Shown: piece after piece, positions 8,910 through 33,328 of the stretch
Layout of the letters: every line of letters begins with the position of its first letter
Position numbering within the stretch: position 1 is the first letter of the stretch
Assembly (NCBI GenBank): GCA_004020545.1
Contig: SAQE01000013.1
Coordinates: 55,875 to 119,874 of the forward strand
Length of the DNA stretch: 64,000 nucleotides
Source: Mesorhizobium sp.
Lineage (GTDB): Bacteria; Pseudomonadota; Alphaproteobacteria; Rhizobiales; Rhizobiaceae
Direction of reading: 5' to 3'
Translations under genes and position numbers: made by a program
Notes under the pieces: model-generated
Seen by the model: the letters and a program-made list of their open reading frames with translations, nothing else
Database searches by the model: none
What the model was told of the DNA's origin: nothing

Positions 8910-10693
8910 CGGGGCGGCCGCGCAAGGGAGCTCCAGTCCGTTTTGCACCAGCCGATGCCATTGCTACCGCACACGCCCGCGATCCGGTCCTCGGTCTGCG
9001 CTTCAACATCGAGGCGCGCTATGGCGGGAGCATCGACGTTGACCTTACCGGCCTGCATCCGCGACCTCTCGCCATCGCATTTGCCGGTGCTCTTCGCCGG
9101 CAGGCGGAGCTTGGTGGTTCGCTGGGGGCGCGGAGTACCATCAAGGGGCATTTAAATGCATGTCTTAGGTTCTTCGCGTATCTGCGCGAGCACTCGAAGG
9201 CAAAAACGCCCGCCGATCTGCGCGCTGACGATATCGACGGATATGAGGATTTCCTCGAAGCCGGCGGGATGAAGCCTATCTACCGGCACATCATTCTTGC
9301 CAAGGCTATTCTCGCCTTGCGCTCGATTGATGCCGACCAACCTGGCCTTCTCGATGAAGGGGTACGGCGTCGGCTAAGTTATACCAGCACACAATCCGCC
9401 GGCCGATCGCAACCGCGCGACGCCTACAGTCCGTACGTCGCAAGGCAGCTTCGCGATGCGGCCCGCGCCGACATCGGCAAGATCTTCAGACGCATCGGGA
9501 AGTCGCTCGATGATGATGAGGGCGACTCCAATCTTCGCAGAGTGACCGACGAAGCGAACGACAGGATCGTGGCCTCGGGCGCGCTCAGCAGCGGGGACAG
9601 AGCCTTCCATCGCTTGTACTTCATGAGGGCACGTCGCGGTCTACCTGTCTCAACCTTGGCCGAAGACATCCACGGTCGTCATCATCTGCGGGCCACCGAC
9701 ATTCCACCGCTTCTGACCTTCCTGTCACTGGAGACCGGCCTGGAGATAGAATGTTGCAAGGCTTTGACGATCGACTGCCTCCAGAACCCCGGACCTGGAA
9801 CCATCGACATAGCCTATATCAAGCGACGCGCCCGAGGTGCTGAGCACAAACATATTCGTGTGCGTGACGGCGGGATCGGAACACCGGGTGGTCTCGTTCG
9901 CAAGCTGATCGAGGTGACGGCCTTTACGAGGCAGTTCGTCCCAAGCGATTGCCTTTGGCTCTATTACTATACCGGCCGGAAGCAACTCCGCGCAGGTGTC
10001 GATCATCCGCATGAACGCGTCGACCAATGGACCGGAAGCCATGGGATCGTCGATGACGATGGCCAGCCTCTTCGGCTCGTTCTTTCGCGATTGCGCAAAA
10101 CCCACAAGGCGATCTGGTATCTGAAGACCGAGGGTCATATGGCCCGCTTTGCGGTCGGGCATACGCCCGAGATTGCCGCTCGACACTATGCGGACATTCC
10201 CTCGCTGCGCCCGCTTCATGAGGCCACCGTGGCGGAGGCATTTTCCGAAGTCGCCGCGGCCGCCGGCCCAATCATATTGGGGCCTCGCGACGAGGATTCC
10301 TGGCGCCAAAGCCACACCGCTTCGGAAGGAAGCAGTGATGTCGACGCGCTTCTAGGCGGCGAACAGGATGTTTGGCTCGCTGCGTGCTCGGGATTTGATC
10401 GCAGTCCTTTCGGAGAGCTGGGATCACCTTGTCCGCAACCGTTCTGGGGCTGTCTCGAATGCCGCAACGCCGTCATCACCGCGCGCAAGCTGCCGGCAAT
10501 CATCGCGTTCCTGTGGTTTATCGAGGAGCAACGGACGGGTCTCCCCGCCGCGGACTGGGCCATGAAGTTCGGCCGCGCGCATCATCGCATCGCGAAGCAG
10601 GTCTTACCTGCTTTCCCGGAGAGTGTAGTTGCCGAAGCTCGCCGCGAGGCGGAAGGGCACGCCCTCTATCTGCCGCCGGAGGCCCGGCAATGA
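8906..10693 (+). CDS. Tyrosine recombinase-like protein, second of trio (active site altered)
   Basis: A 595-residue protein with a phage-integrase-like layout. Early parts include GSLGARSTIKGHLNACLRFF, a core-binding helix set. The catalytic domain is recognisable but degenerate: the place of the first arginine reads ETGLEIECCKAL, with glutamate where TGLR is expected, and the H-x-x-R box reads RLRKTHKAIW. The late VGHTPEIAARHYADI segment, with its histidine and tyrosine, is retained. A C-terminal cysteine-rich part (CPQPFWGCLECRNAV) may bind zinc. It starts at ATG 8906 overlapping the previous stop and ends in an ATGA overlap with the third gene. It may act as an accessory subunit rather than an independent recombinase. 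Confidence 0.75.
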   Translation: MTGRPRKGAPVRFAPADAIATAHARDPVLGLRFNIEARYGGSIDVDLTGLHPRPLAIAFAGALRRQAELGGSLGARSTIKGHLNACLRFFAYLREHSKAKTPADLRADDIDGYEDFLEAGGMKPIYRHIILAKAILALRSIDADQPGLLDEGVRRRLSYTSTQSAGRSQPRDAYSPYVARQLRDAARADIGKIFRRIGKSLDDDEGDSNLRRVTDEANDRIVASGALSSGDRAFHRLYFMRARRGLPVSTLAEDIHGRHHLRATDIPPLLTFLSLETGLEIECCKALTIDCLQNPGPGTIDIAYIKRRARGAEHKHIRVRDGGIGTPGGLVRKLIEVTAFTRQFVPSDCLWLYYYTGRKQLRAGVDHPHERVDQWTGSHGIVDDDGQPLRLVLSRLRKTHKAIWYLKTEGHMARFAVGHTPEIAARHYADIPSLRPLHEATVAEAFSEVAAAAGPIILGPRDEDSWRQSHTASEGSSDVDALLGGEQDVWLAACSGFDRSPFGELGSPCPQPFWGCLECRNAVITARKLPAIIAFLWFIEEQRTGLPAADWAMKFGRAHHRIAKQVLPAFPESVVAEARREAEGHALYLPPEARQ

Positions 10694-12855
10694 TCAGGTT
10701 GGCCGCAGTAGCCTCCACCTCCCGGGAACTCGATCTTCGCCCGGTTCTCGCGTCCGCTCCGTTGAAGCCGGGCTTTGATCGGGACACCCTTTCGCGCTAC
10801 GGCGATCCGAGCTGGGATCTCGGACCGGCCGTATTTCGCGAGAACGCCAGGCGGTGCCATGTCACCGTGCATTTCGGGTCCGTCGAGGATGTGAGTGTTC
10901 GCGAGACGCTTCGCGAGCTTCTCTATGCCCGGCTCAACGTCGACATGCCGGGTCACCGCAAGAAGCTTCCTCCCGGCAGTATCCGGCAGGTTTTCAATCG
11001 TGCGCGACGCTTCTTCGAGTTCGTGCGCGATGAGCTTGGTTCTGTCGATCTTCGCCGTGTCGATCAGCAACTGCTGGATCGCTACGTTCGCCATCTCAAG
11101 ACTGACCGTGCTCGCCGGCCGGTTATAGTCGGCCACCTCCTGGAAGTCCCTGCTGATCTCTATGCCTTTCGCGATTACCTCCCGTCTGGAGGCCTGTACT
11201 TCCGGCCCTGGGGCGGCCAGGCGCCCGCCCGGGTCGCCGGCTATCGCTTTGTTCACGAGAACCTCACGCCACGCATGCCAGAAGAGATCATCTCGCCATT
11301 GCTGGCCTGGTCGAGCCGGTATATCACCCAGTTCGCCTCAGACATCTTCGCCGCCCGTGCAGAGTTGGAGCGATTGGAAGCCCACTGCGCCGCGCTCCTC
11401 CAGTCAGATCAGGCTCTCACATACACGGAACGCCGTAGCCGACAGCGAAGGCGTCTTCAGAACTATTTCGATAAGCTACGAAGCGAAGGCCGTGGCGTGC
11501 CCATCTGGGAGAGCGCGCACAACGGCACCGTTTTGCGGCACCCAGAGACAGGAGACGTATCGCCGCCCGTCAATTCGCACCTGCTTCACCTGCACATTGG
11601 CATCGACGCCCAGGCCGAGCCAAGGATGCATATTCAGCTGACCGGCGGCGCACCTCGCCAGATCAGGGCCGCGTTGCTCGAACTCGGCCTCGAGACAGGT
11701 GGAATGGAGACTCCCATCGCCATTCTACCGGAGACCGGCAAGCCATGGCGGCCCCGCTTCGACGCCAAAACACTGGCGGAGGAAGAGCGGATGCTGCAGG
11801 CGGCAGCCTATATCCTCTGCGCGTACCTGACCGGGATGCGGGACTGCGAGGTCCAGGCGATGCAGCGCGGATGCCTTTCCGTAACGCGCAGCCAAGATGG
11901 CATGGTCATGCGTCATCGCGTTCGCTCGGTTGCCTACAAGGGCAGGTCGAGCCAAGGTGAGCCGGCTGATTGGATTACAATTGAGCCTGTAGCCAAGGCG
12001 ATAGAAGTGCTGGAACGTTTGTCCTTCCGGGCGGCATCCGCGCGCGGGCTCACGACGCTCTGGCCCGTTCTTATCGCAAGGTCCGTTTGCAAGGATCACC
12101 TCTCGGCCGAGATTGTCCGCCAACTCAACCACTTCCGCGACCATCTCAACAACCTGTTCGGCACACCGGATACGCCGGCGGTCCCGAACGGACCAGGTGA
12201 TCAGCCTTGGCGGATCACGACGCGGCAGTTCAGACGCACGATTGCATGGCACATTGCCAACCGTCCCTTCGGCACAATTGCCGGCATGATCCAGTACAAG
12301 CATGCCTCCGTCGCCGCCTTCGAGGGCTATGCCGGCTCCAGCCGATCCGGCTTCCGTGCGGAGGTGCAGAACCAGCGCAGTCTCGGCCAGCTTGATGACC
12401 TGTTGACGTATTTCGATGAGCGGCAGGCCGGGGCGACGTTGTCCGGGCCCGCCGCAGTGCGTGTAGCAAAGACACTCGACGGCATATCAACAGAACTCGG
12501 TCCGCTTCCGGCCATGATCGCTGATCGTGGGCGGCTCCGCACAATGTTAGCGAGCCTCGCGCGGACATTGCATGTCGGAGTGCTGGCCGACTGCTTCTTT
12601 GATCCCGGCACGGCCGCCTGCCTTAAGCAGGCAACGAACATCGACGGCAAGATGCCGCTGACCGCGCTTTGCCAGCCAACCCGCTGCCCCAATGCCTGCA
12701 TCACCGCACGCCATCGGCCAGCTTGGTCACGCTCTGCCGAGGACGCCAAGACCTTGCTGAAGGAGAAGCGTCTGTCGCCTTTGCAACGGACCATCATGAA
12801 GCAGGATCTCCAGCGGATCCAGGCGGTTCTTGATGGCTTAGATCGTCGGACCTGA
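10690..12855 (+). CDS. Tyrosine recombinase-like protein, third of trio
   Basis: A 721-residue protein starting at ATG 10690, inside the stop of the previous gene; the frame is open further upstream but the ATGA overlap fixes the start. The catalytic part includes AYLTGMRDCEVQAM (first arginine), TTRQFRRTIAWH in place of the usual H-x-x-R, and YKHASVAAFEGYAG with the late histidine and a tyrosine. A C-terminal cysteine-bearing segment (CFFDPGTAACL, LCQPTRCPNACIT) looks like a zinc-binding or DNA-end-binding region and also occurs in other large integrase-trio proteins. It probably works in a complex with the two upstream proteins on the element ends. Confidence 0.78.
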   Translation: MIRLAAVASTSRELDLRPVLASAPLKPGFDRDTLSRYGDPSWDLGPAVFRENARRCHVTVHFGSVEDVSVRETLRELLYARLNVDMPGHRKKLPPGSIRQVFNRARRFFEFVRDELGSVDLRRVDQQLLDRYVRHLKTDRARRPVIVGHLLEVPADLYAFRDYLPSGGLYFRPWGGQAPARVAGYRFVHENLTPRMPEEIISPLLAWSSRYITQFASDIFAARAELERLEAHCAALLQSDQALTYTERRSRQRRRLQNYFDKLRSEGRGVPIWESAHNGTVLRHPETGDVSPPVNSHLLHLHIGIDAQAEPRMHIQLTGGAPRQIRAALLELGLETGGMETPIAILPETGKPWRPRFDAKTLAEEERMLQAAAYILCAYLTGMRDCEVQAMQRGCLSVTRSQDGMVMRHRVRSVAYKGRSSQGEPADWITIEPVAKAIEVLERLSFRAASARGLTTLWPVLIARSVCKDHLSAEIVRQLNHFRDHLNNLFGTPDTPAVPNGPGDQPWRITTRQFRRTIAWHIANRPFGTIAGMIQYKHASVAAFEGYAGSSRSGFRAEVQNQRSLGQLDDLLTYFDERQAGATLSGPAAVRVAKTLDGISTELGPLPAMIADRGRLRTMLASLARTLHVGVLADCFFDPGTAACLKQATNIDGKMPLTALCQPTRCPNACITARHRPAWSRSAEDAKTLLKEKRLSPLQRTIMKQDLQRIQAVLDGLDRRT

Positions 12856-13072
12856 GGCGGTGTGGCGGTTCGCGTGCGGCCCAATGATCGGATGTCCCGT
12901 CGGACCAACCCCGGCGTGCGGCGGAGCGCGCGATGTCAGGTCCGCCCGCGCAACGGCTGATCGCCGTCCTTCGCTCCGCTGCGGCTCTTCGAGTGCGCGG
13001 TCGGCCCTTAGGCCATCGCAGATGGCTGCTCCGCCGCCGGGGATTGGCCCCGGCGGGACAGGAGTTCCGACG

Positions 13073-13951
13073 ATGGACACGCAAAACCGCACCGACGTTT
13101 ATACCCGCATCACCTCCGAGATCATTGCCGCCATCGAGGCCGGCGCCGGCGAATGGCGGATGCCCTGGCACCACGATGGAAGCTCGATTGCTCGCCCAAC
13201 CAACATCTCTTCCGGAAAGGCCTATCGCGGCGTCAATACGCTCGCTCTTTGGATCGCAGCTCAGGCTCACGGCTTTGGAAGCGGCATCTGGGGCACATAC
13301 CGGCAATGGCAGGCGCTTGACGCCCAGGTCCGCAAGGGCGAACGCGCAACGACCGTCGTGCTCTGGAAGGAGTTTGCCGCACACAGTGACGATGATGCAG
13401 TCGGCGACGATGAGCACCCCCAGCGACGCCTCTTCGCGCGCGCCTTCTCGGTCTTCAACAGCTCTCAGGTCGAGGGCTTCACGCCTTCCGCCGCTCCAAT
13501 CCTGCCTGACTCTGAACGAGTCCCGCATGCCGATGCCTTCATCAGTGCGCTCGGCATCCCAGTTACTTTTGGCGCGAGCGCTGCATACTACCGCATCGAT
13601 CTCGACCGAATCTTTATGCCGGACTTCAATCGCTTCCGCGATGCGGTCGCTCACGTCGGGACTTATGTCCACGAGGCCGCGCATGCCACGGGCTCTAAGC
13701 ATCGGCTCGATCGAGACTTCACCAAACGCTTCACCCGCCAGGCTTTGGCAGTCGAAGAACTGACCGCCGAACTTGCTGCAGCCTATATTTTAGCCGATCT
13801 GGGCCTGGCGCATCATCCCCGTCCTGACCACGCAGCCTATGTGGCATCCTGGCTGTCGGTGCTGAAGGACGACCCGCGGGCGATTTTCACTGCCGCAAGC
13901 AAAGCGCAGGCTGCCGCTGACTGGATGCACGCGCGACAGCCGCCGAGCTGA
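13073..13951 (+). CDS. ArdC-like antirestriction protein carried by the element
   Basis: A 292-residue product from ATG 13073, behind GGAG at 13061. The N-terminal ssDNA-binding domain is recognisable: VYTRITSEIIAAIEAG, WRMPWHH, KAYRGVNTLALW, VRKGERATTVVLWKEF. A zincin motif HEAAHATG follows, then EELTAELAAAYILADLG and a SWLSVLKDDPRAIF tail. It is complete, unlike the interrupted copy, and is clearly diverged from it, so it is not a duplicate made during insertion. The gene lies between the recombinase trio and the right end, in the position of a passenger. It may shield the element or its host ICE from restriction during transfer. A 217-bp gap separates it from the trio. Confidence 0.82.
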   Translation: MDTQNRTDVYTRITSEIIAAIEAGAGEWRMPWHHDGSSIARPTNISSGKAYRGVNTLALWIAAQAHGFGSGIWGTYRQWQALDAQVRKGERATTVVLWKEFAAHSDDDAVGDDEHPQRRLFARAFSVFNSSQVEGFTPSAAPILPDSERVPHADAFISALGIPVTFGASAAYYRIDLDRIFMPDFNRFRDAVAHVGTYVHEAAHATGSKHRLDRDFTKRFTRQALAVEELTAELAAAYILADLGLAHHPRPDHAAYVASWLSVLKDDPRAIFTAASKAQAAADWMHARQPPS

Positions 13952-20101: not shown

Positions 20102-22072
20102 ATGAAGGATGACGAGTTCAGGCCGAAGCTCGGCAAAATCGGGTCGCGCGGCTCGAAGGCAGGCAAACGCTATGCCGGTCAAGTCCGGGCAGCCGTCAAC
20201 CGAGCCGGCGGCCAGCCCCAGCCCGGCGGTCGCTTCACGGGCAGCCGGACAGGGCGCGGCGGGGCGGCTGCGGCGCTGCTGAAATCGCGCGACCGGTATG
20301 CCGCCTTCCGCCAGCGCCGGGTGATCGTCAAGGCGCGGATCGTCAAGCTCGCCGGCAAGGGCGCGGACGGGGCGCGTGCCCATCTACGCTATCTTCAGCG
20401 CGACGGCGTCACCCGAGAAGGTGCGCCTGGCGAGCTCTACGGCGCCGACAGCGACCGCGTCGACGGCAAGGCGTTCATCGATCGCGCGGACGGCGACCGC
20501 CACCAATTCCGCTTCATCGTCGCTGCCGAAGACGGCATCGAGTATGAAGACCTGAAGGCGCTGACGCGGCGGCTCATGGCGCAGATGCAGGAAGACCTCG
20601 GCACGAAGCTCGACTGGGTCGCGGTTGATCATTTCAACACCGGCCACCCGCACAGCCACATCATCGTCCGAGGCAGGGACGACCGTGGCGAGAACCTGGT
20701 CATCGCGCGCGAATATATCTCATCTGGCATCCGCGAGCGGGCGGCCGAGCTGGTCAGCCTCGATCTCGGTCCGCGAACCGACCGCGAGATTGAGCTTCGC
20801 CTGCGCCGGGAAATGGAGCAGGAACGCTTCACCAGCATCGACCGTCGGCTGCTCAGCATGCGTGATGATGACGGGCTGGTCTCGCCGGGCGGTCCCGACG
20901 CCATTCGCCAGACGCTGCACCAGGGACGGCTGCGCAAGCTCGAGCGGATGGGTCTGGCCGCGGAGGTCGGCGCTGGCTCCTGGCGCCTCGACGATGAGCT
21001 CGAAGCCACGCTGCGCCGCACCGGCGAACGCGGCGACATCATCAAGACCATCCACCGCGAACTGGCCGGCAAGGGGCTTGCACGCAGTGCCGCCGACTGG
21101 GTGATCCACGATCGAGCCGGCGAGCCCGTCCAGTCTCTCGTCGGTCGCGTTGTCGCGCGTGGACTGGCCGACGAGATCAATGACCGCCACTACATGATCG
21201 TCGACGCCGTCGACGGTAAGAGCCATTGGATCGACATCGGTAGAGGCGAGGCGATGGAAACGATGCCTAATGGCTGCATCGTGCGTGTCGCGCCAAGGAA
21301 CACCGAGCCGAGGCGGGTCGATCGTACCATCGCCGAAATCGCCGCCGCGAATGGCGGCCGTTACGACGTCGATATCCACCTGAAGCATGACCCATCCGCC
21401 ACCGAGAGCTTTGCGCGAACGCATGTGCGGCGGCTGGAGGCGATCCGCCGCGCGACCGGCGGCGTTGAGCGAGAGCCGAACGGCACCTGGCTCATCGCGC
21501 CGGACCATCTCGATCGCGTCGCGAATTATGAGGGCCAGCGGGCCAGGGCCGAGCCTTTCGTTGTCGACAAGCTCTCCTCAATGGCGCTGGAGCGACAGGT
21601 CAGCTTCAACGGCGCCACCTGGCTCGACCGGGAGCTGGTTGCCGATAGACCCGAGCCTTTGCACGGATCCGGCTTCGGCTGCGACGTGAGAGAGGCGCAA
21701 GCTCGCCGGCGGGAGTGGCTGATCGCGCAAGGCCACGCGCATGAAGAACAGGATCGGATCGTCTATCGAGCCAACATGCTTTCGATCCTGCGCCAGCGAG
21801 AACTGAACCGTGTTGCTGGCCAACTGTCGGAGGAACTTGGCCTGCCCTATGCCGAAGCGCGATCCGGAGGACGAGTAGAGGGTACGCTCCGCCGCTCCGT
21901 CGAGCTTGCCAGCGGAAAATATGCCGTCGTTGAGAAGTCGCGCGAGTTCACGCTGGTGCCATGGCGGCCGGTGCTTGAGCGCCATGTGGGCAAGGAGGTC
22001 TCCGGTGTCGTGAGTGGGGAGGGGATTTCATGGACCGTCGGCCGGCAAAGGAGCGGACCTGGTGTTTCGTGA
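20102..22072 (+). CDS. rlxS: Relaxase RlxS (VirD2/TraI-like, DUF3363)
   Basis: A 656-residue relaxase that should nick the origin of transfer and stay bound to the 5' end. N-terminal relaxase part: LRYLQRDGV (with a candidate catalytic Tyr97), FRFIVAAEDG and the histidine cluster HFNTGHPHSHIIVRG (residues 177-191) that binds the metal. The long C-terminal region is the DUF3363 domain; it includes GLADEINDRHYMIVDAVDG and ends LVPWRPVLERHVGKEVSG. Gene order rdfS-traF-transglycosylase-relaxase matches ICEMlSym. It starts at ATG 20102 after a GGGAGG-like site. A degraded copy of its last 100 bp occurs at 25943. Confidence 0.9.
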   Translation: MKDDEFRPKLGKIGSRGSKAGKRYAGQVRAAVNRAGGQPQPGGRFTGSRTGRGGAAAALLKSRDRYAAFRQRRVIVKARIVKLAGKGADGARAHLRYLQRDGVTREGAPGELYGADSDRVDGKAFIDRADGDRHQFRFIVAAEDGIEYEDLKALTRRLMAQMQEDLGTKLDWVAVDHFNTGHPHSHIIVRGRDDRGENLVIAREYISSGIRERAAELVSLDLGPRTDREIELRLRREMEQERFTSIDRRLLSMRDDDGLVSPGGPDAIRQTLHQGRLRKLERMGLAAEVGAGSWRLDDELEATLRRTGERGDIIKTIHRELAGKGLARSAADWVIHDRAGEPVQSLVGRVVARGLADEINDRHYMIVDAVDGKSHWIDIGRGEAMETMPNGCIVRVAPRNTEPRRVDRTIAEIAAANGGRYDVDIHLKHDPSATESFARTHVRRLEAIRRATGGVEREPNGTWLIAPDHLDRVANYEGQRARAEPFVVDKLSSMALERQVSFNGATWLDRELVADRPEPLHGSGFGCDVREAQARRREWLIAQGHAHEEQDRIVYRANMLSILRQRELNRVAGQLSEELGLPYAEARSGGRVEGTLRRSVELASGKYAVVEKSREFTLVPWRPVLERHVGKEVSGVVSGEGISWTVGRQRSGPGVS

Positions 22073-22428: not shown

Positions 22429-23413
22429 ATGACCACGGCCCGCCATATCGTGACGCTGCTTAAAAGCCACTTTGCCGGCGACGAGGATCGTTTCCTCTCT
22501 ATCGCGATGCAGCTTGCTGCGCATGAGGCACGTCAAGGCCATGGCAAGCTTGCTCAGGAGCTCAAGGATCTGGTCGACGCAGCCAAGAGCAGGGACGCCC
22601 GGATTGCCAAGAGCAGTCGGCCGGTTCCCCTTTTTCAGCCAAAGGGCGAGCTCGCAGGGCTCCTGCATGTGCGCTATCCGGACCTGCGACTGACCGACAT
22701 GATTTTGCCGGACAGTCTGCGCTCGCGCCTGCACCGCGTGCTGGGAGAGCAGCGCCAACAAGCAAGCTTGCGCGAGCACGGGCTTGTTCCCCGTCGCAAA
22801 CTGCTTCTGGTCGGCCCGCCAGGATCAGGCAAGACGATGACCGCATCGGCATTGGCCGGGGAGCTTCATCTGCCCCTTTTCACGATCGTCCTCGATGGTT
22901 TGATCACCAAGTTCATGGGAGAGACTGCCGGAAAGCTGCGGCTTGTTTTTGATGCAATGCAGGCGACGCGGGGCGTCTACTTCTTTGACGAATTCGATGC
23001 CATCGGCGCGCGTCGAGGCGAACGCCAGGATGTTGGCGAGATTCGGCGCGTGCTGAATTCGTTTCTGCAGTTTCTCGAGCAAGACGACAGCCACAGCCTG
23101 ATTATTGCGGCAACAAATCATCCCGAGCTGCTCGACAGAGCTTTGTTCCGCCGTTTCGACGATGTCATCGAATACGCCGTGCCCGATCGGCCGATTATCG
23201 AGGCGCTGCTTCGGGCTCGACTCGACCGCTTCGACACCAGAGGGCTTGCCTGGAACGAGGCGATCTCTCAGGCAGAGAGACTGTCGCAGGCCGAGATCAC
23301 CCGCGCGGCCGACGACGCTGCAAAAACCATCATATTGCGGGGGGGGGCGGATCACCTCGGAAGCGCTCATCGACGCTCTGAAGGAACGCCGGCAGGCTTC
23401 GCTGTCTGAGTAG
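22429..23413 (+). CDS. AAA ATPase paired with subtilase (frameshift at a G9 tract)
   Basis: About 328 residues. An N-terminal helical part (residues 1-90) is followed by an AAA module with LLLVGPPGSGKT (Walker A, 129-136), YFFDEFDAIG (Walker B, 184-193), IIAATNHPE (sensor 1) and LFRRFDD (arginine finger). In the sequence as given, the frame slips at nine G residues (23339-23347) and would end at 23409. With one G fewer it reads GGGRITSEALIDALKERRQ and stops at 23411-23413, the more natural AAA end. The start ATG follows AGAGAG. The subtilase gene begins 18 bp later, so the two form an operon. The ATPase probably unfolds or delivers substrates to, or gates, the peptidase; that role is inferred. 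Confidence 0.82.
23339..23347 (+). repeat. Nine-G homopolymer in the AAA ATPase gene
   Basis: GGGGGGGGG close to the 3' end of the gene. The protein frame is out of register across it by one base. Such tracts slip during replication and in sequencing, so this may be a switch or an error. Confidence 0.6.
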
Positions 23414-23430
23414 CGACAGCACAGATCATA

Positions 23431-25898
23431 ATGGCAGACGATTTTCCGCGCGACCGCGCCCATATCCACCTTCGCAACAACGGCATTCGGGAAGCCTATC
23501 GGCGGCCCAACCAACTTATACATGCACCGCCGCTGCCGGCGCGTGATCGGGCGTCGCATGCTGCGGCCTTGACGCAATCCATCGAACAAGCGGTCGAAAG
23601 TGCACGCCAGCAGATTGCGGCGCGTGACCCCCAGCTGTCGGTCGGCACGCCTGGCTTTTATCTCGAGATCGATCTGCCCATGTCCGGACGGGCGGCCCTC
23701 GACCAGTTGGCCGATCGTCGCCAGCACATGGAGCTGGTCGCCGTCCATGAGCCAACTCAACCCGGTGCTCCCATCACAGCGTCGGTGTTCCTGCCGCAAA
23801 GCGCGCAAGCCTATTATTTGCGGAAAGTCGAGGCGTATCGAGACGTTGACACTGACCGCGGCAGACCGCGCAACGAGCCGCTCGTCTCCCGCATGGAGAC
23901 AGTCAGGCTGGCGACTGCACGATCGTTGTTTACCGACCACGACGACCTCTTCCCCCAGGCCGCTGACGAGCAGGTGTGGTGGGAAGTCTGGCTGCGCGAC
24001 GGTCGCCGCGAGAACTTCGAGCACATTGCCGAAGCCCTGAACATCACTTTGCGCACGCATGCGGTCAGGTTTCCGGAGCGGGTGGTCATGCTGGCACTCG
24101 CCAGCACGGCAATGCTCGACCGCATGATTGCGCACAGCGATGTCGTCGCCGAGCTGCGGCGCGCGAAGGATACGCCGTCCTTCTTCATGGGCCTTGGCGG
24201 CGCGGAGCAAAGGGACTGGAGCGACGAGCTTCTCGGGCGCGTCAGACCGCCTCAACCGATATTGCGGTCTGCATTCTCGACAGCGGCGTGCGTCGCACCC
24301 ACCCGTTGATCGAACCCGCACTTGCCGTTGAAGACTGGCACACCGTCAAACCGGCATGGGGCAGCGACGACACACCTGCGTGGAGCGGCCACGGGACGCG
24401 AATGGCAGGTGTCGGCCTGTACGGTGATCTGGTCCCGCTCCTGGTCGGAGGCGATCCAGTTCCATTGCCCTTTCGGCTGGAGAGTGTTCGTATCCTTCCG
24501 CCAGAAGACGAGGCAAACGATCCAGAACTCTATGGCGCGATCACCGCGGAAGCGATCGCCCGCGCCGAGGTGCAGGCGCCGGAGCGCCGCCGCGCGATCG
24601 CAATGGCTGTGACAAGCGCCAGTCCGGCGCGTGGAAGGCCCACATCGTGGTCTGCCGCTATCGACCAACTCTGTTTCGAAGAGGAACAGCGACGCTTGAT
24701 CGTTCTCTCTGCCGGCAACATCGGCGATGACCTCATGCCGGCCGAGCATTTGACGCGCAACGATCTGGAAGCAGTCGATGATCCTTCTCAGGCCTGGAAT
24801 GCGCTGACGGTCGGCGCTTTCACAGAAAAGGTCGATATCATTGACACCGACTTTGCGGGCTACGCTCCGATCGCGCCGGTCGGCGAGCTCTCGCCGCGCA
24901 GTCGCACTTCGGTCGTTTGGGACAGGCAGTGGCCGGTGAAGCCCGAGGTCGTCTTCGAAGGCGGCAATCTCGCCCATGACGGTGTGTTGCCTGGCGAGCC
25001 GATCGACGATCTGCAGATATTGACCACTTTCTATCGACCCGAACTGCGCCACTTCACCACCCTCGGAGATACGAGCGCGGCAACGGCCCATGCCGCACGG
25101 ATGGCGGGACTAATTCTATCAGCGCGCCCCGAGCTGTGGCCTGAAACGGTTCGCGCCCTGATCGTCCACTCGGCCGAATGGACTCCGGCGATGCGCGCAC
25201 GCATCGATGCGTGCAACGGAGCGAAGGGCGAGATCCAGGCGCTCGTGCGGCGCTATGGTTATGGCGTGCCAGATCTTGGGCGCGCGCTTCTGTCAACGGT
25301 GAACGACCTCACGCTTATCGTTGAAGATGAGCTTCAGCCTTTCCAGCGCGAGGGCGGCGCGGCTGCCAAAACGCGTGACATGAAGCTGCATCGCCTGCCT
25401 TGGCCGAAGGAGCAGCTCGCGGCGCTCGGCGCTGCCCAGGTCGAGCTCCGCGTCACGCTGTCCTATTTCATCGAACCCAACCCCGGTGAACGCGGATGGA
25501 CCCGCCGGCATCGTTACGCGTCCCATGGTCTTCGGTTCAGAGTAAAGTCAGCGACCGAGACAGTCGACGAATTCCGAGCCCGCATCAATCAGGCCGCTCG
25601 GGACGAGGAGGAAGGGGCGCCTGCTGGAGGCGGAGAAGAGTGGCTGCTCGGCACCTTCCGCGATCGCGGCTCGTTGCACGCCGATTTCTGGTCGGGCAGC
25701 GCCGCCGATCTCGCCGAGCGTGACGCGATCGGCGTGTTCCCGGTCGGGGGCTGGTGGAAGGAGAAGCCTTACCTGGAACGCGTCGACGCTCTGGCTCGGT
25801 ACGCCCTGATTGTGACGATTCGGGCGCCTGGGGTCGATGTTGACATCTTCACACCCGTCGAAGCAGCCCTGACTGTCGAGACGTCGGTCGAGACCTGA
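23431..25898 (+). CDS. Subtilisin-like serine peptidase (S8), frameshifted near 24250
   Basis: About 820 residues once one frame change is allowed. The first frame (23431 to about 24245) gives a non-catalytic N-terminal part, including VWWEVWLRDGRRENFEHIAE, that may regulate or recognise substrates. The second frame carries the whole catalytic domain: aspartate in VCILDSGVRRTHPL, histidine in SGHGTRMAGVGLYG, asparagine in IVLSAGN, serine in LGDTSAATAHAARMAG. The frame shift falls in GTCAGACCGCCTCAACCG, with no long homopolymer. No signal peptide is visible, so the enzyme is probably cytoplasmic. AAA ATPase plus S8 peptidase pairs recur on mobile islands; a defence role is plausible but not shown. 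The frameshift may be real or a sequencing error. Confidence 0.8.
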
Positions 25899-25942
25899 TG
25901 CAGCACTGTCCAAACCGGCCAACAACGGAGGTTTGACCAGCC

Positions 25943-26040
25943 TCTGGTGCCATGGCGGCTGGTGCTGGATCATCACGTCGGCAAGGAGGTGTCAGGGATC
26001 ATGCGCGGAGGACGATAGGCGGGCAAAGGAGCGGGCCAAG
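25943..26040 (+). pseudogene. Relic copy of the rlxS 3' end
   Basis: LVPWRLVLDHHVGKEVSGI is readable here and closely matches LVPWRPVLERHVGKEVSG at the end of rlxS. At DNA level CTGGTGCCATGGCGGC, GTCGGCAAGGAGGT and GGGCAAAGGAGCGG recur in the same order. The copy is broken by a stop (TAG) and lacks everything upstream. Confidence 0.75.
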
Positions 26041-26112
26041 CGTGTCATAATGGCGCCCATGGTCACGCCCACAAGCCGCGCCCCCTGCGTCCACGGAGAG
26101 GTGCGCGTCTGC

Positions 26113-27672
26113 TTAGGCGGCCGAGACATCGCTTACCTGATCAACGGGCTCGCCGTATTTGCGCCTGTAAGCGGCAATGAAATCGTCGTCGCTACAGATG
26201 CAGCGGCCGCTGGAGTCCTTGGCCTTCGGATCGTGCAAGTGAGAGCCAAGGGGGCGCAGAAGATTCACCCGAGTGCTCGTCGTCGGGCTCATGGGAAACC
26301 CCGCACTATGTTTGACCAAATCCGCGGCAAGCATAATCCCGGCAAGCACCGACTGAAAGGCCATCGGAACGACAGTTCGAACGCGGCGACTTCCTTCGCT
26401 AAGCTGGAACACCAGACCGCCGCAGATAGCCTGCTGATAAAAGGAGCGCAGGGGCTGGCCGACAAACGGGGCTAGCGGTTCAAACGGCACAGCCATCGCT
26501 GTAGCCACGCGAACTACAAAGTCGTTGGGAACTCCGGCATTGGTCTGCAGGAGCGTTTTCACCTGCTCGTGTGCTTCCGGTATTCCGAGTTCCTCGGCAA
26601 TCAGCTGGTGCTCGTCCTTGGATTTTCCGGATGGCAGGTACATGCAACAAAGGCAAGCCTGGCCGTCATCGAAACCATGCCGGGAGATACCGAGATCGTG
26701 CTCCTGCGTCCAAGCGTTTGCGATCCATCGCGGCAGTGCACCTTGGACAGCCAGACGGTCGGCGGCGGTGTCAAGCGCCACACCCACTTGGTCGAAGACC
26801 CAATTGCCCCGGCGCGCAACATATTCTGCCCACGTCAGAGGGTGCGCCTCGACCTCAAGGGCAGTCGATCTAAGGGCGGTGGCTGCAAGAACCGCCTTGG
26901 ACATACCAATCTCCGCCTGGCCGGCCAATGCGTAGCGCTGCAGGTTTGAGAGTTCGATCGCTTCGTGATCGATTACATGCAGACGACCCTTGAGATCGGG
27001 TTGTCTCGCTAGCGCCCAAAGCGAGCCATGGCCTATCGCACCGAGCCCAACGAGGTGGGTTTCGCCAAGGTCGACTGGAAAGTCGATCGGGCCAGCCTCC
27101 CCGGCTTTGGTCTTGTCGTAGCTGCATAGCGAGAGGTCGATGGTTTCGTCCAACTCGGCGCCGGTCAACTGGGCGGCGAAGATAGTTCGAAAGACGTTGG
27201 CGGCGCCGAAGCAACTGGCGGCGCCAGCTCCATAAGGCAGCAGACTTGGGCCAGAGCCCACCGGGTCCGTACGCGACAGCTTTGCCGCCCAACCGTCCGA
27301 TCCCACGAAAAAGATCGGGCACCGGAGTGATGGGCGCGTTACCCCTGCAACGACGCAGACGGTGGCAGACTTGCCGGAACGCCGGATGCCGACTTTTGGA
27401 TTGATCGACTTTGCCAAGCGCTCCAGCGCTTGGGCTTGAGAGCTCGCCGCGCTGTCCAGCGGGAGTATCGCCAGAACCGGGTAGAGCCTAGCGAGCAATC
27501 TCACCGCAAGATCTAATGTCGCCTGGCCTTCGGCGCAGGAAGCGGCCTGATGGTCGAAGGCGACTGCCACGACCTGCTTTTCAAGAGCTGCTTTGAAGTC
27601 TCCCAGATGAAAATCGGCCAGGACCTGAGATGCCGCCGTGGCGGCGCGATCGATGAAGTTAGCGAATGCCAT
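26113..27672 (-). CDS. E1-like (ThiF family) activating enzyme of a bacterial ubiquitin-like operon
   Basis: A 519-residue protein. The central adenylation domain shows LVGLGAIGHGSLWAL (nucleotide-binding loop, residues about 207-221) and DHEAIELSNLQRY (235-247), both hallmarks of E1/ThiF enzymes. A CLCC cluster (340-343) is a candidate thioester or zinc site, although only a structure would tell. The N-terminal 190 residues are a separate domain without a pattern I recognise. E1 enzymes adenylate the C-terminus of a ubiquitin-like protein. The gene is the last of four on the minus strand and starts three bases after the JAB stop. It converges on the subtilase gene. Confidence 0.88.
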   Translation of the reverse strand: MAFANFIDRAATAASQVLADFHLGDFKAALEKQVVAVAFDHQAASCAEGQATLDLAVRLLARLYPVLAILPLDSAASSQAQALERLAKSINPKVGIRRSGKSATVCVVAGVTRPSLRCPIFFVGSDGWAAKLSRTDPVGSGPSLLPYGAGAASCFGAANVFRTIFAAQLTGAELDETIDLSLCSYDKTKAGEAGPIDFPVDLGETHLVGLGAIGHGSLWALARQPDLKGRLHVIDHEAIELSNLQRYALAGQAEIGMSKAVLAATALRSTALEVEAHPLTWAEYVARRGNWVFDQVGVALDTAADRLAVQGALPRWIANAWTQEHDLGISRHGFDDGQACLCCMYLPSGKSKDEHQLIAEELGIPEAHEQVKTLLQTNAGVPNDFVVRVATAMAVPFEPLAPFVGQPLRSFYQQAICGGLVFQLSEGSRRVRTVVPMAFQSVLAGIMLAADLVKHSAGFPMSPTTSTRVNLLRPLGSHLHDPKAKDSSGRCICSDDDFIAAYRRKYGEPVDQVSDVSAA

Positions 27673-27675
27673 TGT

Positions 27676-28164
27676 TCAACTCGATATCATGATCATTCGC
27701 GACAGTGCCGCGGGAGGGAGCGCATTCCATTTGGCCTTTTCGTCAAGCCGATAGGCGGCGACCCGAGCAAAATCGAAAGGCTCGCGGGCGAAATTCGGCA
27801 CCACCAGCGACAGACACCCAACCGTGGTAGCAACCGCATAAGCGTCGTCCGTCGTCGAATGGTAGGCGCGGCCCGGATGGCTGTGAATCTGGGCCAAGAG
27901 TTTCAGGCCGCTTTTGTAGAGCCAGACATTGAGCCGGTGCAGTTCTTCGGCCGCAACGATCACGCAAACGCCATCGTTTGTTCGAATGTGACGCTGCGCC
28001 GGGATAACCGTCTCTGTTACGGCAAAGTGCCGGTCTTCCTGAACGCCGACCCAAAGTGCCATCCCCTCATTGCCCTCGCGACCAACTGAGCGCAGATGCC
28101 CATGCGTGGTCGAGATGCAGCCGCGCGGGAGAGTCACGATCGTTACATCTCTCAAACCAGTCAT
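27676..28164 (-). CDS. JAB/MPN-type metallopeptidase (JAMM)
   Basis: A 162-residue protein. The JAMM zinc motif is complete: glutamate in GNEGMALW (E34), then HSHPGRAYHSTTDD with H94, H96, S103 and D106. JAMM enzymes cut isopeptide or peptide bonds after ubiquitin-like domains, so this one may process the UBL or remove it from targets. The frame is open upstream to 28314, but ATG 28162-28164 overlaps the stop of the CEHH gene (ATGA), which decides the start. Confidence 0.88.
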   Translation of the reverse strand: MTGLRDVTIVTLPRGCISTTHGHLRSVGREGNEGMALWVGVQEDRHFAVTETVIPAQRHIRTNDGVCVIVAAEELHRLNVWLYKSGLKLLAQIHSHPGRAYHSTTDDAYAVATTVGCLSLVVPNFAREPFDFARVAAYRLDEKAKWNALPPAALSRMIMISS

Positions 28165-28778
28165 TCTTGTATCGCCTGAGGGGATACCACCATTCCTACG
28201 ATTGTCGGTTGGAGTTGAATCTGCAACTGCTCTATAGGAACGATTCCGTACTTGATGATCTTGTCCAGGATGAAGGCCAAACAGCCTTCGCCAGAACCCC
28301 GATGAAGTAGCCATGGATCACCTGAATGGGCTGGATTGTCGTGGTATTCCCGGACGCCCGCCATGCACAGGAATGGTTCGTCCTCGGGACTGTTGGCCTG
28401 GATGAAGTCCGTCAGCGGCACGGCGTTCTGCTGGATGAGAGCTCCTATCATCTCCGGCGGCGTTCCGGGCAGCGGCGGACGTCTAAGCATTTTCAGGTAT
28501 AGATCTTTCCGGGCAATCGGATCACGCGTAAACGGATCGACGAAGACCACGGACGGTGGTCTTAAGTCGTAGTCGGTGAAGTCGACCTCGCTCGCTGCGC
28601 TGACCACCCGTGGCTTTAACTTGGGGCTGGCGAAAATGAAGAAAGCGCGCGGAAAAGTCGCCTCGATCAAGAAGCAGCCCTGAGCCCGATAGACATCAGC
28701 ATATGGCCGGAACCGGCCGATCTCCCGATCAAACTTCGCTCGGGAGACCTCCGGATCCACACTTTGGGGTTTAGGCAC
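28161..28778 (-). CDS. CEHH-motif protein of ubiquitin-like operon (E2 position)
   Basis: A 205-residue protein in the place where E2-like genes usually stand. It has the spaced motif C138, E144, H146, H151 in LCMAGVREYHDNPAHSGDPW, which fits the predicted metal-binding CEHH family (Pfam metal_CEHH, from memory) reported in bacterial UBL operons. No canonical E2 catalytic cysteine motif (HPN-type) is seen. Whether it transfers the UBL or acts otherwise is unknown. It starts at GTG 28776-28778, overlapping the UBL stop by eight bases, and ends in ATGA with the JAB gene. Confidence 0.78.
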   Translation of the reverse strand: MPKPQSVDPEVSRAKFDREIGRFRPYADVYRAQGCFLIEATFPRAFFIFASPKLKPRVVSAASEVDFTDYDLRPPSVVFVDPFTRDPIARKDLYLKMLRRPPLPGTPPEMIGALIQQNAVPLTDFIQANSPEDEPFLCMAGVREYHDNPAHSGDPWLLHRGSGEGCLAFILDKIIKYGIVPIEQLQIQLQPTIVGMVVSPQAIQE

Positions 28779-29067
28779 CTGCGACGCCCGCCTTCAGGCT
28801 GAGGAACAGGGTCACAGTATTCGGGAAACCGAAATCGCCAAGCTTCTTGTCGACGTCGAGCAAGTTGCCGGCCTCATCCTTGAATTCCCAATTCTCGGCT
28901 GGTTGGGCGACATTCTGCGTGTTCTCAAGGGCTTTGGTACGAATGACGTGAAGCGGCTGGTTGGGATTGGCTTCGACCTGCGTGGGCTGGCCGTTCACCA
29001 CCACCGTGATCTCGATCTTGCCCGGTCCGCCGCCGTGATTATCGCCCTTACCCGAATCCTTCGACAT
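28771..29067 (-). CDS. Ubiquitin-like protein (DUF2604/multiubiquitin-type)
   Basis: A 98-residue protein: a flexible glycine-rich start (SKDSGKGDNHGGGPGK), then one beta-grasp domain, ITVVVNGQPTQVEANPN, PLHVIRTKALENTQN, WEFKDEAGNLLDVDKKL, DFGFPNTVTLFLSLKAG, ending AGVAGA. The fold pattern and operon place identify it as a prokaryotic UBL, probably DUF2604. The C-terminus is GVAGA rather than exposed GG, so trimming or a different last residue would matter for activation. ATG 29065-29067 follows AGGAG and is the first gene of the four-gene operon; an upstream in-frame start lacks a ribosome-binding site. Confidence 0.85.
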   Translation of the reverse strand: MSKDSGKGDNHGGGPGKIEITVVVNGQPTQVEANPNQPLHVIRTKALENTQNVAQPAENWEFKDEAGNLLDVDKKLGDFGFPNTVTLFLSLKAGVAGA

Positions 29068-29847: not shown

Positions 29848-29881
29848 GGTTGCTCATGTGATCTGTGGAAGTGAGGATAGC

Positions 29882-32800
29882 GTGCACCCGTACAAACTAG
29901 ACATTCATCGTGGCAGCTTGGCTGCAGGTGCAGCACGCCGTACCGCACGAGCAAGCGGACAGGCCGGCCAAGCCGGTTTTGAGCAGCACTTGGGCGAACT
30001 GCAGGCGGCGGACGAGTTGATGGGTGCGCCAGGCGAGGAGGTCCTCGTCAATGGCTCGCATGGTAAAGGTGAGTTGAGACCAACGAAGAGGCAGAGGATC
30101 CAAAGCAATCTGCAGCATGCTGTCACTGAGCGGCAACCAGGTGAGGTTGGCAACTCAGGCGCTCGCGTGATGATGCAACTCCCCACCCATCAGGTGGGTA
30201 CATCGGAACGGGAGGCGCAACTTGTGATGCAGGGGGACGAGCACGAATACACCCCAGCACCGCATCTCGACGGGTCGATGCCCTCGACAGTGCAGCCGGA
30301 TCGTCCAATTGTGGTCCCCGACGGTGCCGACAAGCGTCCTGTTTATTCCAACGATGCCACCGCCATCGAAGGGCTGAAGTCAGCACTCCTTGCGGGTAAA
30401 GCCAGGCCGGACACGGTCACTCGCAGCACAAATTCTCTTTTCGGCTTTAGTCGTTGGCTCTTTCAAAACAACAAGCCAGGGCTTGCTGCTCGGCTTTACC
30501 ATCCGTCGCTGAGCCAGGATCTCGAGGAGTACGAGAGTAGGGGTGGTTCCTCCACCGTGGCTGGCGCACTGCGTCAATTGATGAAGTCGATGGGCGGAGC
30601 CGGCCCGATTGTGGGTCGCGCTGTCCTGAACCCCCATCCTGACGACGCCGCGCTCACCAGACATTTCAGATCCGCGAGCGGCTACGCAACTGCTCTTAAC
30701 CATTTCAGTCATTACCTACGTCAAAATGACAAGCTCGGAATTGCGGGTCGCATTTACGATAAATCGCTGGATAAAGATGTTGAGAGCTACAAGGCCGCCT
30801 CCTCTAATGGTGGAGCTCCGATCGAATCTGCGCTGGTTTATCTCCGCAAGAACCCGCCGCGCGTTATACTCGGGAATCATCTGGAAAACGCGGTCAGCAT
30901 GGAGGCTCGTCCCCGTGGCGACGCTGCTCAGCATACCGCACCACAGCAGGGATTCGATTGGCCAGAGGAGCTCCTGCCGGTAGGTTATAAGGAGGGCACC
31001 GATCTACCATTGTCTCTCGCCCCAACCGCGCACCAACACCAAGCGCCCGACTTTGGAGAGGCCGTCCCTCACTTGAACTGGCGCCACGGCGACCAGGGCG
31101 CCCCGGAGGAGCTGGTAGCTGCACGGGACAGGAGCAGCCCGCTGCCAAGCGAGGCGGTGCCACATAAATCTGGACGGGGACTCGCTACGCAGCCCAGATT
31201 GTGGGCGGAGAAATCCGCCTCGCCAGAGCTCTTTCGACGGCGGGCGGAGCAGGCTCTGCCGGCGTCCGCCAGAGGTGTGGAGACATCCTCCGCGGTTGAT
31301 GAAGCCGCGCAGGCCGCTCGCCAAGCTTTGGCTTGGTTGCAGCAGGAGATGGAGGGGATCGAACCGATGCAGGATCCTCATAAGGTGGCTACACCGGAAT
31401 GTGAGGCGCAGCTCGTCAGGCAGAGGGATGAGCACGAATCCACCCCAGCACCGCATCCCGGAGGTGGTGGGTCGATGCCCTCGACAGTGCAGCCGGATCG
31501 TCCAATTGTAGTCCCCGACGGTGCCGACAAGCGTCCTGTCTATTCCAACGATGCGACCGCTATCGAAGGGCTGAGGGCAGCATTCCACGCGGGTAAGGCC
31601 AAAGCGAACACGGTCACTTACAATGTAAATTCTCTTTTCGGCTTTAGTCGGTGGCTCCTTCAAAACAACAAGCCAGGGTTTGCTGCTCGGCTTTACCATT
31701 CGTCGCTGGATCAGGATCTCAAGGAGTACGAGAGTACGGGTGGTTCCTCCACCGTGGCTGGCGCACTGCGTTACCTCAAGAAGTCGACAGGCGGAGCCCA
31801 GATTATGGCTCGCCCTGTCGTGATCCCCTATCCTGACGATGCCGAGCTCATTAGAAATTACAGAGCCGCTTCGACCAAGGAGTACCTGGCAGCGCCTGCG
31901 ACCGGACGGAATCCAGATACCGTGGGCGGCTATACAAATTTTCTTAGACATTTTAGTCAGTACCTGCGTCAAAATAACAAGCTTGGGATTGCGGCTCGGA
32001 TTCACGACAAATCGCTGGATAAAGATGTTGAGAGCTTCAAGGCTGTCTCCTATGGTAATAGGCTAAGTATCAGTTCTGCATTGGCTCACCTCCGGGATAT
32101 CCTGCCGCGCATTGTGCTCGGGCGCGAAACTGTCCTTTCTGCTCATCCGGCAGACGCAGTCACCAGGCGCGTTGGGGCCGCTGCTGAAGCTGGGCCAGCG
32201 GCACCGGCAAGAGCTCCCCAACCCGCCTCGCCAGCAACCGCTAGGCTGCCAGGCACCTACCGCGGCCTTCCACTGGTTGATGTGACCACACTGACTACCA
32301 GTTCCTCTGGGGCTCAGATCGGGGCGCTCGATCCGACAGCCCCGTCCAACGTTGCAACGGGGCGGGTGCTCGGCGCCGCCGAATGGCTGAGCGACGCCCA
32401 TATCCAGAGAGATTACAATTTGCTGGAGGGGCAACTGCAGGGGATCAATCCGGCGCTCGCTGCCCGGACTCGGCTGGTGGATCCTTCCGTATCCCATCTA
32501 CTGCGACACACGTCGCCGCAAGACGCTCGAGGCATATTGCAGTCCATCTATAATCAAAACAACGCCACAGCCGACTTCCTGTTCTTGCCAGTGAATAATG
32601 GCACGGCTACTAGCCCCGGCACCCATTGGTCGCTGCTGCTCGTTGATCGCCGCGACCCGGAAAGGCGGTTCGCCTATCACTACGACTCCCTCCAGCGAGA
32701 GGGATATAACGACGTGCCTGCAAAACAGCTCGCAGGACTGCTGAATGCCACCTTGGCGCCAGCCCCCATGGCCAGACAGACGAACCATTATGATTGCGGC

Positions 32801-33328
32801 GTATTTGTCCTGGAGGGCACGTGGGCGCTGGTTGAACGATTGGTGAAAGGGCAGCGGCCAGACCACGAGCCGCTGCCCCTCGACAACCTCGTTGCCGATC
32901 GGCAGGCGCTGCAAGACCGGCTAAGGAGGCGCTTGCCGCACGAGGAAGAGCCGCGGCAGCTGCTGGAGGATGAACCCGCCTCCCCACCGATGATGGCATT
33001 CGAGCCAGGGGAACTGCGGCAACTGTTGGAAGACGAGCCTGCCTCCCCACCAATGATGGCGTTCGAGCCAGGGGAACTGCGGCAACTGTTGGAGGACGAG
33101 CCTGCCTCCCCACCAATGATGGCGTTCCAGCCAGGGGAACTGCGGCAGCTGTTGGAGGATGAACCCGCTTCCCCACCGATGATGGCGTTCGAGCCAGGGG
33201 AACTGCGGCAACTGTTGGAAGACGAGCCTGCCTCCACTTGGGCACAAATCAATTCGACCCCACATGCGCGAGCGGACGGTGTTCATCAGCCAGCCCAGGC
33301 GCCGTGGCTCCCTGAACGCAGAAGATAA
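29882..33328 (+). CDS. Type III effector with C48 (ULP1/SUMO-protease) domain, NopD/XopD-like
   Basis: About 1148 residues. The start is GTG 29882 (GGAAGTGAGG upstream); GTG 29858 is possible. The N-terminus is Ala/Gly-rich, as in type III substrates, with no Sec signal. Two long internal repeats follow (DNA 30210-30873 and 31400-32121), each with FGFSRWL-QNNKPG-AARLYH and HYLRQN-KLGIA. The C48 cysteine-peptidase domain has the triad H915 (GTHWSLLLVD), D935 (YHYDSL) and C972 (NHYDCGVFV). A tail of 21-residue repeats (LRQLLEDEPASPPMMAF) ends the protein. Relatives (NopD in Bradyrhizobium, XopD in Xanthomonas, a few Mesorhizobium proteins) cut SUMO from plant targets. The preceding tts box supports type III export into legume cells. 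Confidence 0.87.
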   Translation: MHPYKLDIHRGSLAAGAARRTARASGQAGQAGFEQHLGELQAADELMGAPGEEVLVNGSHGKGELRPTKRQRIQSNLQHAVTERQPGEVGNSGARVMMQLPTHQVGTSEREAQLVMQGDEHEYTPAPHLDGSMPSTVQPDRPIVVPDGADKRPVYSNDATAIEGLKSALLAGKARPDTVTRSTNSLFGFSRWLFQNNKPGLAARLYHPSLSQDLEEYESRGGSSTVAGALRQLMKSMGGAGPIVGRAVLNPHPDDAALTRHFRSASGYATALNHFSHYLRQNDKLGIAGRIYDKSLDKDVESYKAASSNGGAPIESALVYLRKNPPRVILGNHLENAVSMEARPRGDAAQHTAPQQGFDWPEELLPVGYKEGTDLPLSLAPTAHQHQAPDFGEAVPHLNWRHGDQGAPEELVAARDRSSPLPSEAVPHKSGRGLATQPRLWAEKSASPELFRRRAEQALPASARGVETSSAVDEAAQAARQALAWLQQEMEGIEPMQDPHKVATPECEAQLVRQRDEHESTPAPHPGGGGSMPSTVQPDRPIVVPDGADKRPVYSNDATAIEGLRAAFHAGKAKANTVTYNVNSLFGFSRWLLQNNKPGFAARLYHSSLDQDLKEYESTGGSSTVAGALRYLKKSTGGAQIMARPVVIPYPDDAELIRNYRAASTKEYLAAPATGRNPDTVGGYTNFLRHFSQYLRQNNKLGIAARIHDKSLDKDVESFKAVSYGNRLSISSALAHLRDILPRIVLGRETVLSAHPADAVTRRVGAAAEAGPAAPARAPQPASPATARLPGTYRGLPLVDVTTLTTSSSGAQIGALDPTAPSNVATGRVLGAAEWLSDAHIQRDYNLLEGQLQGINPALAARTRLVDPSVSHLLRHTSPQDARGILQSIYNQNNATADFLFLPVNNGTATSPGTHWSLLLVDRRDPERRFAYHYDSLQREGYNDVPAKQLAGLLNATLAPAPMARQTNHYDCGVFVLEGTWALVERLVKGQRPDHEPLPLDNLVADRQALQDRLRRRLPHEEEPRQLLEDEPASPPMMAFEPGELRQLLEDEPASPPMMAFEPGELRQLLEDEPASPPMMAFQPGELRQLLEDEPASPPMMAFEPGELRQLLEDEPASTWAQINSTPHARADGVHQPAQAPWLPERRR
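30210..32121 (+). repeat. Two-fold internal repeat in the effector gene
   Basis: Copies at about 30210-30873 and 31400-32121. The most conserved part begins TCGATGCCCTCGACAGTGCA and encodes VPDGADKRPVYSNDATAIEG in both. The second copy has an insertion (KEYLAAPATGRNPDT). The unit of about 200 residues may be a helical substrate-binding or targeting domain. Confidence 0.85.
32954..33235 (+). repeat. 63-bp tandem repeats at the effector 3' end
   Basis: Four full units and one partial unit encode RQLLEDEPASPPMMAFEPGE. Copies differ mainly at silent positions plus one E/Q change. Similar C-terminal repeats occur in some NopD-type effectors. Confidence 0.88.

Follow-up and report, generated by a model that had tools for sequence, protein, structure and literature searches.

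In a 64,000-nucleotide stretch of a 7.0-Mb draft Mesorhizobium genome (assembly GCA_004020545.1, contig SAQE01000013.1, positions 55,875 to 119,874; hereafter the window), two sets of genes converge between positions 22429 and 29067: on the plus strand an AAA+ ATPase gene and an S8 peptidase gene, which make up an ietAS pair, and on the minus strand a four-gene ubiquitin-like operon, bilABCD. These are very probably two independent, previously known anti-phage cassettes brought together at one insertion site of an integrative and conjugative element (ICE), Bil being the resident and IetAS a later arrival that is now decaying. An earlier, sequence-only reading had placed all six genes and the 214 bp between the converging stops correctly, as family searches and remeasurement confirm, and had rightly suspected that each module was known in outline and perhaps concerned with defence. 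It had also supposed that one module might tag proteins that the other would unfold and cut, while allowing that they might simply be two cargo modules side by side; it is this second possibility that the evidence favours.

The minus-strand operon is an orthologue of the BilABCD system with solved structures (PDB 8tyx, 8tyy, 8tyz, 8tz0), the source organism of which we take to be Ensifer aridi, as the E. aridi LMR001 locus (L036) supports. All four proteins match chains of 8tyx, 8tyz and 8tz0 over essentially their full length in phmmer searches: bilD (26113-27672, minus strand, like the other three), for an E1-like activating enzyme, matches 8tyz_A over residues 1-518 of 519 (1050 bits); bilC (27676-28164), for a JAB/JAMM deubiquitinase (DUB), matches 8tyx_B over its full length; bilB (28161-28778), the 'CEHH' gene, matches the E2 chain 8tyz_C (E 8e-112); and bilA (28771-29067), for a ubiquitin-like (UBL) protein of the DUF2604 family, matches 8tyx_A over its full length (E 2e-57). 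Pfam and PADLOC profiles agree (ThiF and BilD, JAB and BilC, Metal_CEHH, DUF2604), and the structural matches clarify two of the Pfam labels: because BilB matches the E2 chain, the gene labelled Metal_CEHH is the E2, and because BilD matches the E1 chain, Prok-E2_C is the N-terminal part of the E1, with ThiF behind it. The genes thus stand in the order UBL-E2-DUB-E1. This is also the order in E. aridi LMR001, with proteins 80-93% identical; the differences are that the window operon sits on a Mesorhizobium ICE and, in the window lineage, has ietAS downstream. BilB carries the CEHH residues C138, E144, H146 and H151 (numbers and roles from the part of the review PMC11354881 that was consulted), BilC has the JAMM motif HSHP together with E33 (8tyx names an E33A mutant of this DUB), and BilA ends in ...AGVAGA, with a predicted C-terminal glycine that BilC could expose. 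By homology, and following the molecule names in PDB and that part of PMC11354881, BilD and BilB would conjugate BilA to target proteins, BilC would expose the BilA C-terminus, and the system would act during phage infection.

The plus-strand pair belongs, by PADLOC profiles, to the IetA/IetS defence family (IteA/IteS in NCBIfam). The product of ietA (22429-23409, plus strand, as for the rest of the pair; PADLOC IetA, E 1.5e-71) is recognizably an AAA ATPase, with a Walker A motif, GPPGSGKT, at residue 129 and YFFDEFD at residue 184. What follows it is not a single S8 polypeptide: the S8 coding region (23431-25898) is spread over two frames, the first part (23431-24309) being a 292-aa open reading frame (ORF) that lacks the peptidase domain and stops early at a frame break, and the second (24216-25898), in another frame, holding the domain (Peptidase_S8, E 8e-60; PADLOC IetS, E 9e-26) with its Asp (LDSG), His (SGHGT) and Ser (GDTSAA) motifs. 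The split, caused by an indel near 24253, comes just ahead of the catalytic domain, so that the window ietS, as it reads, cannot yield one polypeptide holding the protease domain. A further frame change, at a G-rich stretch near 23345, has replaced about the last 22 residues of the window IetA relative to 26 of the 37 copies considered below. The modules are therefore not both complete, as they had appeared to be. The pair shares with known IetAS its layout of AAA ATPase followed by S8 peptidase, and differs in its broken ietS and in being a divergent branch that falls short of the NCBIfam equivalog cut-offs of NF042959 and NF042956, with 198 of 510 bits and, in the case of the C-terminal ietS piece, 28 of 900. 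That piece found no match in PDB by phmmer, and a literature search on the mechanism of IetAS found nothing on it among the entries listed.

How did the two cassettes come to be neighbours? Upstream of ietA lies the ICE relaxase gene rlxS (20102-22072, plus strand; a relaxase of the DUF3363/MobA-VirD2 type: Pfam DUF3363, E 4e-145; Relaxase, E 3e-5), and among 28 loci aligned with the window there were 12 in which bil lies directly beside rlxS, without ietAS (L038, L039, L041-L043, L046, L049, L053, L074, L145-L147); the same arrangement was seen at the protein level in L174 and L176. The gap between the ietS and bilD stops (25899-26112) holds a decayed second copy of the rlxS 3' end (25944-26058, plus strand, the right end being approximate), of which 53 bp are 83% identical to positions 21953-22005 of the window's own rlxS; longer stretches of it align at 70-78% with the junctions in several sister ICEs. 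In sister elements the alignments of rlxS and of bil come together, or overlap, at the position of the remnant, with no ietAS between. From the empty sites and the remnant together, it follows that ietAS entered where rlxS and bil join, and that the end of rlxS was duplicated and left next to bil. The insertion presumably took place by recombination with an ICE carrying rlxS-ietAS. A possible donor-like element is represented by a contig of another genome (L141), in which rlxS-ietA is 94% identical in DNA sequence to the window, ietS is cut short, and a polyprenyl synthetase gene comes next; the only PF14455 match in that genome is a fragment scoring 25.8 bits.

The subsequent fates of the two cassettes were compared in 37 copies of the locus with about 99% DNA identity (28 named loci, eight single-contig genomes and the window, representing 20 distinct sequences and including at least one duplicate, L140 being the same as L045). 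The full 822-aa ietS frame is present in 10 of the 37; in 26 it is ended early or partly deleted, through several different lesions, and in L012 it is altered near the C-terminus. With ietA full length in 26 of 37, both genes are full length in 10 copies (4 of the 20 distinct sequences). None of the 37 has an interrupted bilA, bilB or bilC; of the bilD genes, 22 encode 519 aa, 14 encode 509 aa and one encodes 557 aa. When each alignment gap is counted once, the frame-breaking indels in ietAS number 13 (seven in ietA and six in ietS, where one is a 296-bp deletion), to which a nonsense change is added. In bil there is a single indel site, within the final codons of bilD, and in one copy bilD has been lengthened; scaled by length, 13 indels against 1 gives a binomial p of 0.003. 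Synonymous single-nucleotide polymorphisms (SNPs) are nearly equal in number (32 in ietAS, 31 in bil), so age does not explain the contrast. Nor were any frame-breaking lesions found in rlxS (26 loci), the transglycosylase gene (24) or traG (17, of which 10 are cut); in this check 10 of 36 rlxS matches were partial and were left out, and 2 of 36 ietS matches (those with the 296-bp deletion) were partial. The window's break near 24253 is shared by 11 of the 37 copies, among them the single-contig genomes L133 and L136, and must therefore have been inherited; a sequencing or assembly slip in one genome is ruled out as its cause. We take Bil to be active and IetAS inactive in the window.

If tagging by Bil and cutting by IetAS were parts of one pathway, the two might be expected to keep company. 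Searching with BilB gave 67 named Bil loci, of which 28 are near-identical to the window (27 of them Mesorhizobium records, some from metagenome-assembled genomes; the names include M. muleiense, M. mediterraneum and M. wenxiniae, which we take to be chickpea symbionts). Direct adjacency of Bil and IetAS is a property of these 28 and is thus confined to one lineage, with BilB 97-100% identical. In all 39 loci outside it no IetA was found by phmmer in flanks of up to 10 kb (shortened in places by the end of the contig); L048 and L072 among them do, however, show an ietS of a second family. A scan of the genus gave the same picture for 59 Bil copies (four PF14455 matches under 100 bits were excluded, in G525, G412 and G481 and the second in G490; IetA matches of about 110 bits in long open frames were taken as FtsH and also excluded; and an IetA in G481, near-identical to that of the window, was counted as outside Bil). 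All 36 lineage copies have an IetA no more than 10 kb from bilB, and none of the 23 others has; four of those 23, which fall into two groups, have one within 25 kb. At the level of whole genomes outside the lineage there is no association either, IetA being present in 5 of 20 with Bil and 15 of 90 without (p 0.36). Of twelve plasmids carrying BilD, eleven gave no match to either profile used (PDLC04232 for IetA, PDLC02198 for IetS), and relatives of the window's S8 piece occur on 432 plasmids. Adjacency in a single lineage, with no genome-level association elsewhere, indicates that the modules are mostly independent; direct adjacency was not found in unrelated lineages among the 67 named loci and 59 genus copies. 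The sequence-only reading had looked to co-occurrence within 10 kb to settle the matter, and here the outcome is divided: the adjacency is confined to the lineage, but a second-family ietS does come within about 5.5 kb of bilD in four other loci.

These four (L048, L072, L142 and L143) share a layout: next to bil comes a longer remnant of the 3' end of rlxS, then cargo whose ORFs run through the same series of lengths. The edge of ietS is about 5.5 kb away from bilD in each, and other genes occupy the interval. In L143 this cargo (7000-11816) encodes proteins resembling nucleoside deoxyribosyltransferase, SIR2 and DUF6884/PDC-M57, together with two that have no Pfam match; lying between IetAS and bil, and having counterparts in L142, L048 and L072, the block is possibly a further defence cassette. 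The L143 cargo also holds the second-family IetAS, its IetA 36% identical to that of the window, and in L142 and L143 this pair adjoins a full rlxS (L048 and L072 end before that point). The site beside rlxS is thus one that other cargo has used again. The second-family ietS is open in L143 and, up to the point where the locus ends, in L048; it is frame-broken in L072 and interrupted by about 5 kb in L142, where the interrupting DNA contains, in opposite orientations, two copies (10653-11006 and 13086-13439) of a 354-bp stretch 95% like window positions 60674-61027, which are probably the ends of a mobile element. In G420 and G423 a third family lies 21 kb from bil, on its other side; its ietS is open in L144, the one of these loci that was examined. 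The symbiosis plasmid of strain NGR234, pNGR234a, also carries bilABCD (NC_000914.2, 395373-398326; labels there include a DUF2604 protein, a putative metal-binding protein and an 'E2 ligase fold family C protein'), and at 22-24 kb from bil it has ietA together with half of ietS, the N-terminal one; the C-terminal half stands elsewhere on the plasmid beside a second copy of ISRsp2. The four IetA sequences near Bil (the window's and these three) are only 32-39% identical to each other, and ietS is broken in two of the three non-window groups. Such looser proximity fits shared insertion real estate.

Away from Bil, ietS is in better condition. At 23 places in the genus where IetA lies more than 30 kb from Bil or occurs without it, a single ORF of 745-888 aa stands behind ietA in all except one, the truncated L141; 19 of the 22 match an IetS by tblastn, and the other three (L160, L161, L166), which do not, are taken for ietS from their position and, in two of them, from motifs. 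On plasmids, 58 of the 60 matches listed (of 432) have an unbroken S8 part, many of them from near-identical Agrobacterium plasmids.

Against independence of the cassettes and decay of IetAS, several observations must be set. The ten lineage copies that keep both modules open belong to strains in which the pair could act, and even the window sequence is compatible with reinitiation on the C-terminal ietS frame. The ratio of nonsynonymous to synonymous polymorphism does not differ (pN/pS 0.31 for ietAS, 0.24 for bil; Fisher p 0.71), so that SNPs alone give no sign of relaxed selection. Unrelated IetAS pairs near Bil, whether at about 5.5 kb in four loci, at 21 kb or at 22-24 kb on pNGR234a, can be read as a favoured pairing. 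The bil genes themselves are broken or partial in three of the 39 loci outside the lineage (L047, L051, L075). This damage suggests that Bil can at times be dispensed with.

Some of these points would also serve the idea that BilABCD tags proteins for IetAS to unfold and cut, in a bacterial counterpart of degradation by the ubiquitin-proteasome system. In its favour are the invariable adjacency within the lineage, the copies in which both modules are open, the recurrence of three further IetAS lineages at 5.5-24 kb from Bil, and a precedent for ietAS acting in association with another defence system, Zorya II, in the part of PMC11811056 that was consulted. Against it, the window itself has a disrupted protease gene, and its two modules run towards each other instead of sharing an operon; across the lineage ietS falls short of full length in 27 of 37 copies while bilA, bilB and bilC stay open in every one; the 39 non-lineage loci show no IetA in the flanks covered (L048 and L072 having an ietS of another family); and eleven of the twelve Bil plasmids match neither profile. 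We reject such a pathway, which is very improbable given the broken ietS and the restriction of direct adjacency to one lineage. Two other accounts of the frame breaks were likewise considered. Switching of the pair on and off through the G-rich stretch in ietA would account for three different indels near that stretch among the 37 copies; most lesions, among them every one in ietS, lie outside it, the 296-bp deletion and the nonsense change included, and phase variation is on that account highly improbable. Programmed frameshifting between the two ietS frames might seem to be favoured by a break common to 11 copies, but in other copies the frame is either intact or disrupted at another place, and the sole XXXYYYZ heptamer at 24100-24309 is in the wrong phase, which leaves the notion with next to no credibility. 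Both have been rejected.

A different kind of explanation is that live IetS is harmful on symbiosis elements or together with their Bil, through antagonism or a cost to conjugation or symbiosis, and has been purged. This would make sense of the six frame-breaking indels and the nonsense change in the ietS of the window lineage, of the two damaged second-family copies among four near Bil, of the pNGR234a gene split beside IS21 copies and of the shortened ietS of L141, set against the intact genes in 22 of 23 genus loci and nearly all of the plasmid matches listed. Yet eight of the 22 open loci (L148, L154, L155, L158-L160, L163, L168) are in genomes that carry bil elsewhere, Rhizobium etli CFN 42 has an unbroken S8 part of IetS on one plasmid (NC_004041) and bilD on another (NC_007762), L141 has a broken ietS in a genome without a full bil, and both modules are open in the ten lineage copies and in L143 and L144. 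The independent lineages are few, and symbiosis elements are rich in insertion sequences, so that plain decay may suffice. We consider purging unlikely, and quite unlikely the more elaborate version in which symbiosis elements with a resident Bil repeatedly gain IetAS beside it and lose IetS through conflict with Bil, conjugation or life in the nodule. Were the latter true, repeated loss of IetS would document, in nature, that two defence systems are incompatible. Decay after insertion is the most likely history, purging being possible: Bil is the resident cassette of a Mesorhizobium symbiosis-type ICE, IetAS was inserted later between rlxS and bil, and the two do not form one pathway in the window.

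The sequence-only reading had placed both modules inside a symbiosis ICE. The ICE part is borne out by neighbouring genes for a relaxase, an SLT transglycosylase and a coupling protein, which the locus shares with the backbone of ICEMlSymR7A-type elements (rlxS, the msi107 transglycosylase gene, traF and traG, as listed in the part of PMC8627217 consulted). In the main text of that paper the words 'ubiquitin' and 'defence' are absent, and Bil seems to have gone unremarked there as cargo; a narrow search of titles and the beginnings of abstracts, together with this part of PMC8627217, likewise found no account of Bil and IetAS as neighbours, or of Bil carried by an ICE, which does not prove its absence from print. 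The symbiosis part is indirect, in that nodA lies on another contig of the window draft and would thus only presumably belong to the same ICE. Nine lineage copies do have nodA and bil on one contig. More generally, Bil is strongly tied to nodulation genes, nodA being present in 54 of 56 genomes of the genus with Bil and 47 of 90 without (p 2e-9), and still in 18 of 20 against 47 of 90 when the lineage is excluded (p 0.002). Among 14 non-lineage copies with both genes on one contig, bil is 17-41 kb from nodA in 12; in the remaining two and the nine lineage copies the distance is 258-813 kb (258-451 kb in the lineage). This ubiquitin-like system is thus regular cargo of symbiosis elements. IetA outside the lineage shows no such link with nodA (12 of 20 with, 53 of 90 without).

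We draw attention to three further observations. Two genomes (G468, G469) each have two Bil copies, one of the lineage and one not, and three nodA matches, suggesting two symbiosis elements per chromosome. Beside the bil operon a large ORF with internal repeats (29858-33328, plus strand) encodes a C48 (Ulp1/SUMO-protease-like) domain; we presume that it resembles a rhizobial type III effector, and its position next to a ubiquitin-like operon is probably a coincidence. The same element also carries a gene for an ArdC-type antirestriction protein (12860-13951, plus strand).

Bil and IetAS are each already known, and the window adds a member of each, on a mobile element of chickpea-nodulating bacteria. 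Adjacency of defence cassettes can evidently be an effect of a shared insertion site, with one partner in decay, which calls for caution when composite pathways are deduced from gene neighbourhoods. That ietS has been lost repeatedly in the vicinity of Bil argues, as yet weakly, for a conflict between defence systems that can be put to the test. As for Bil itself, its regular carriage on rhizobial symbiosis elements provides natural hosts in which to ask what purpose it serves.

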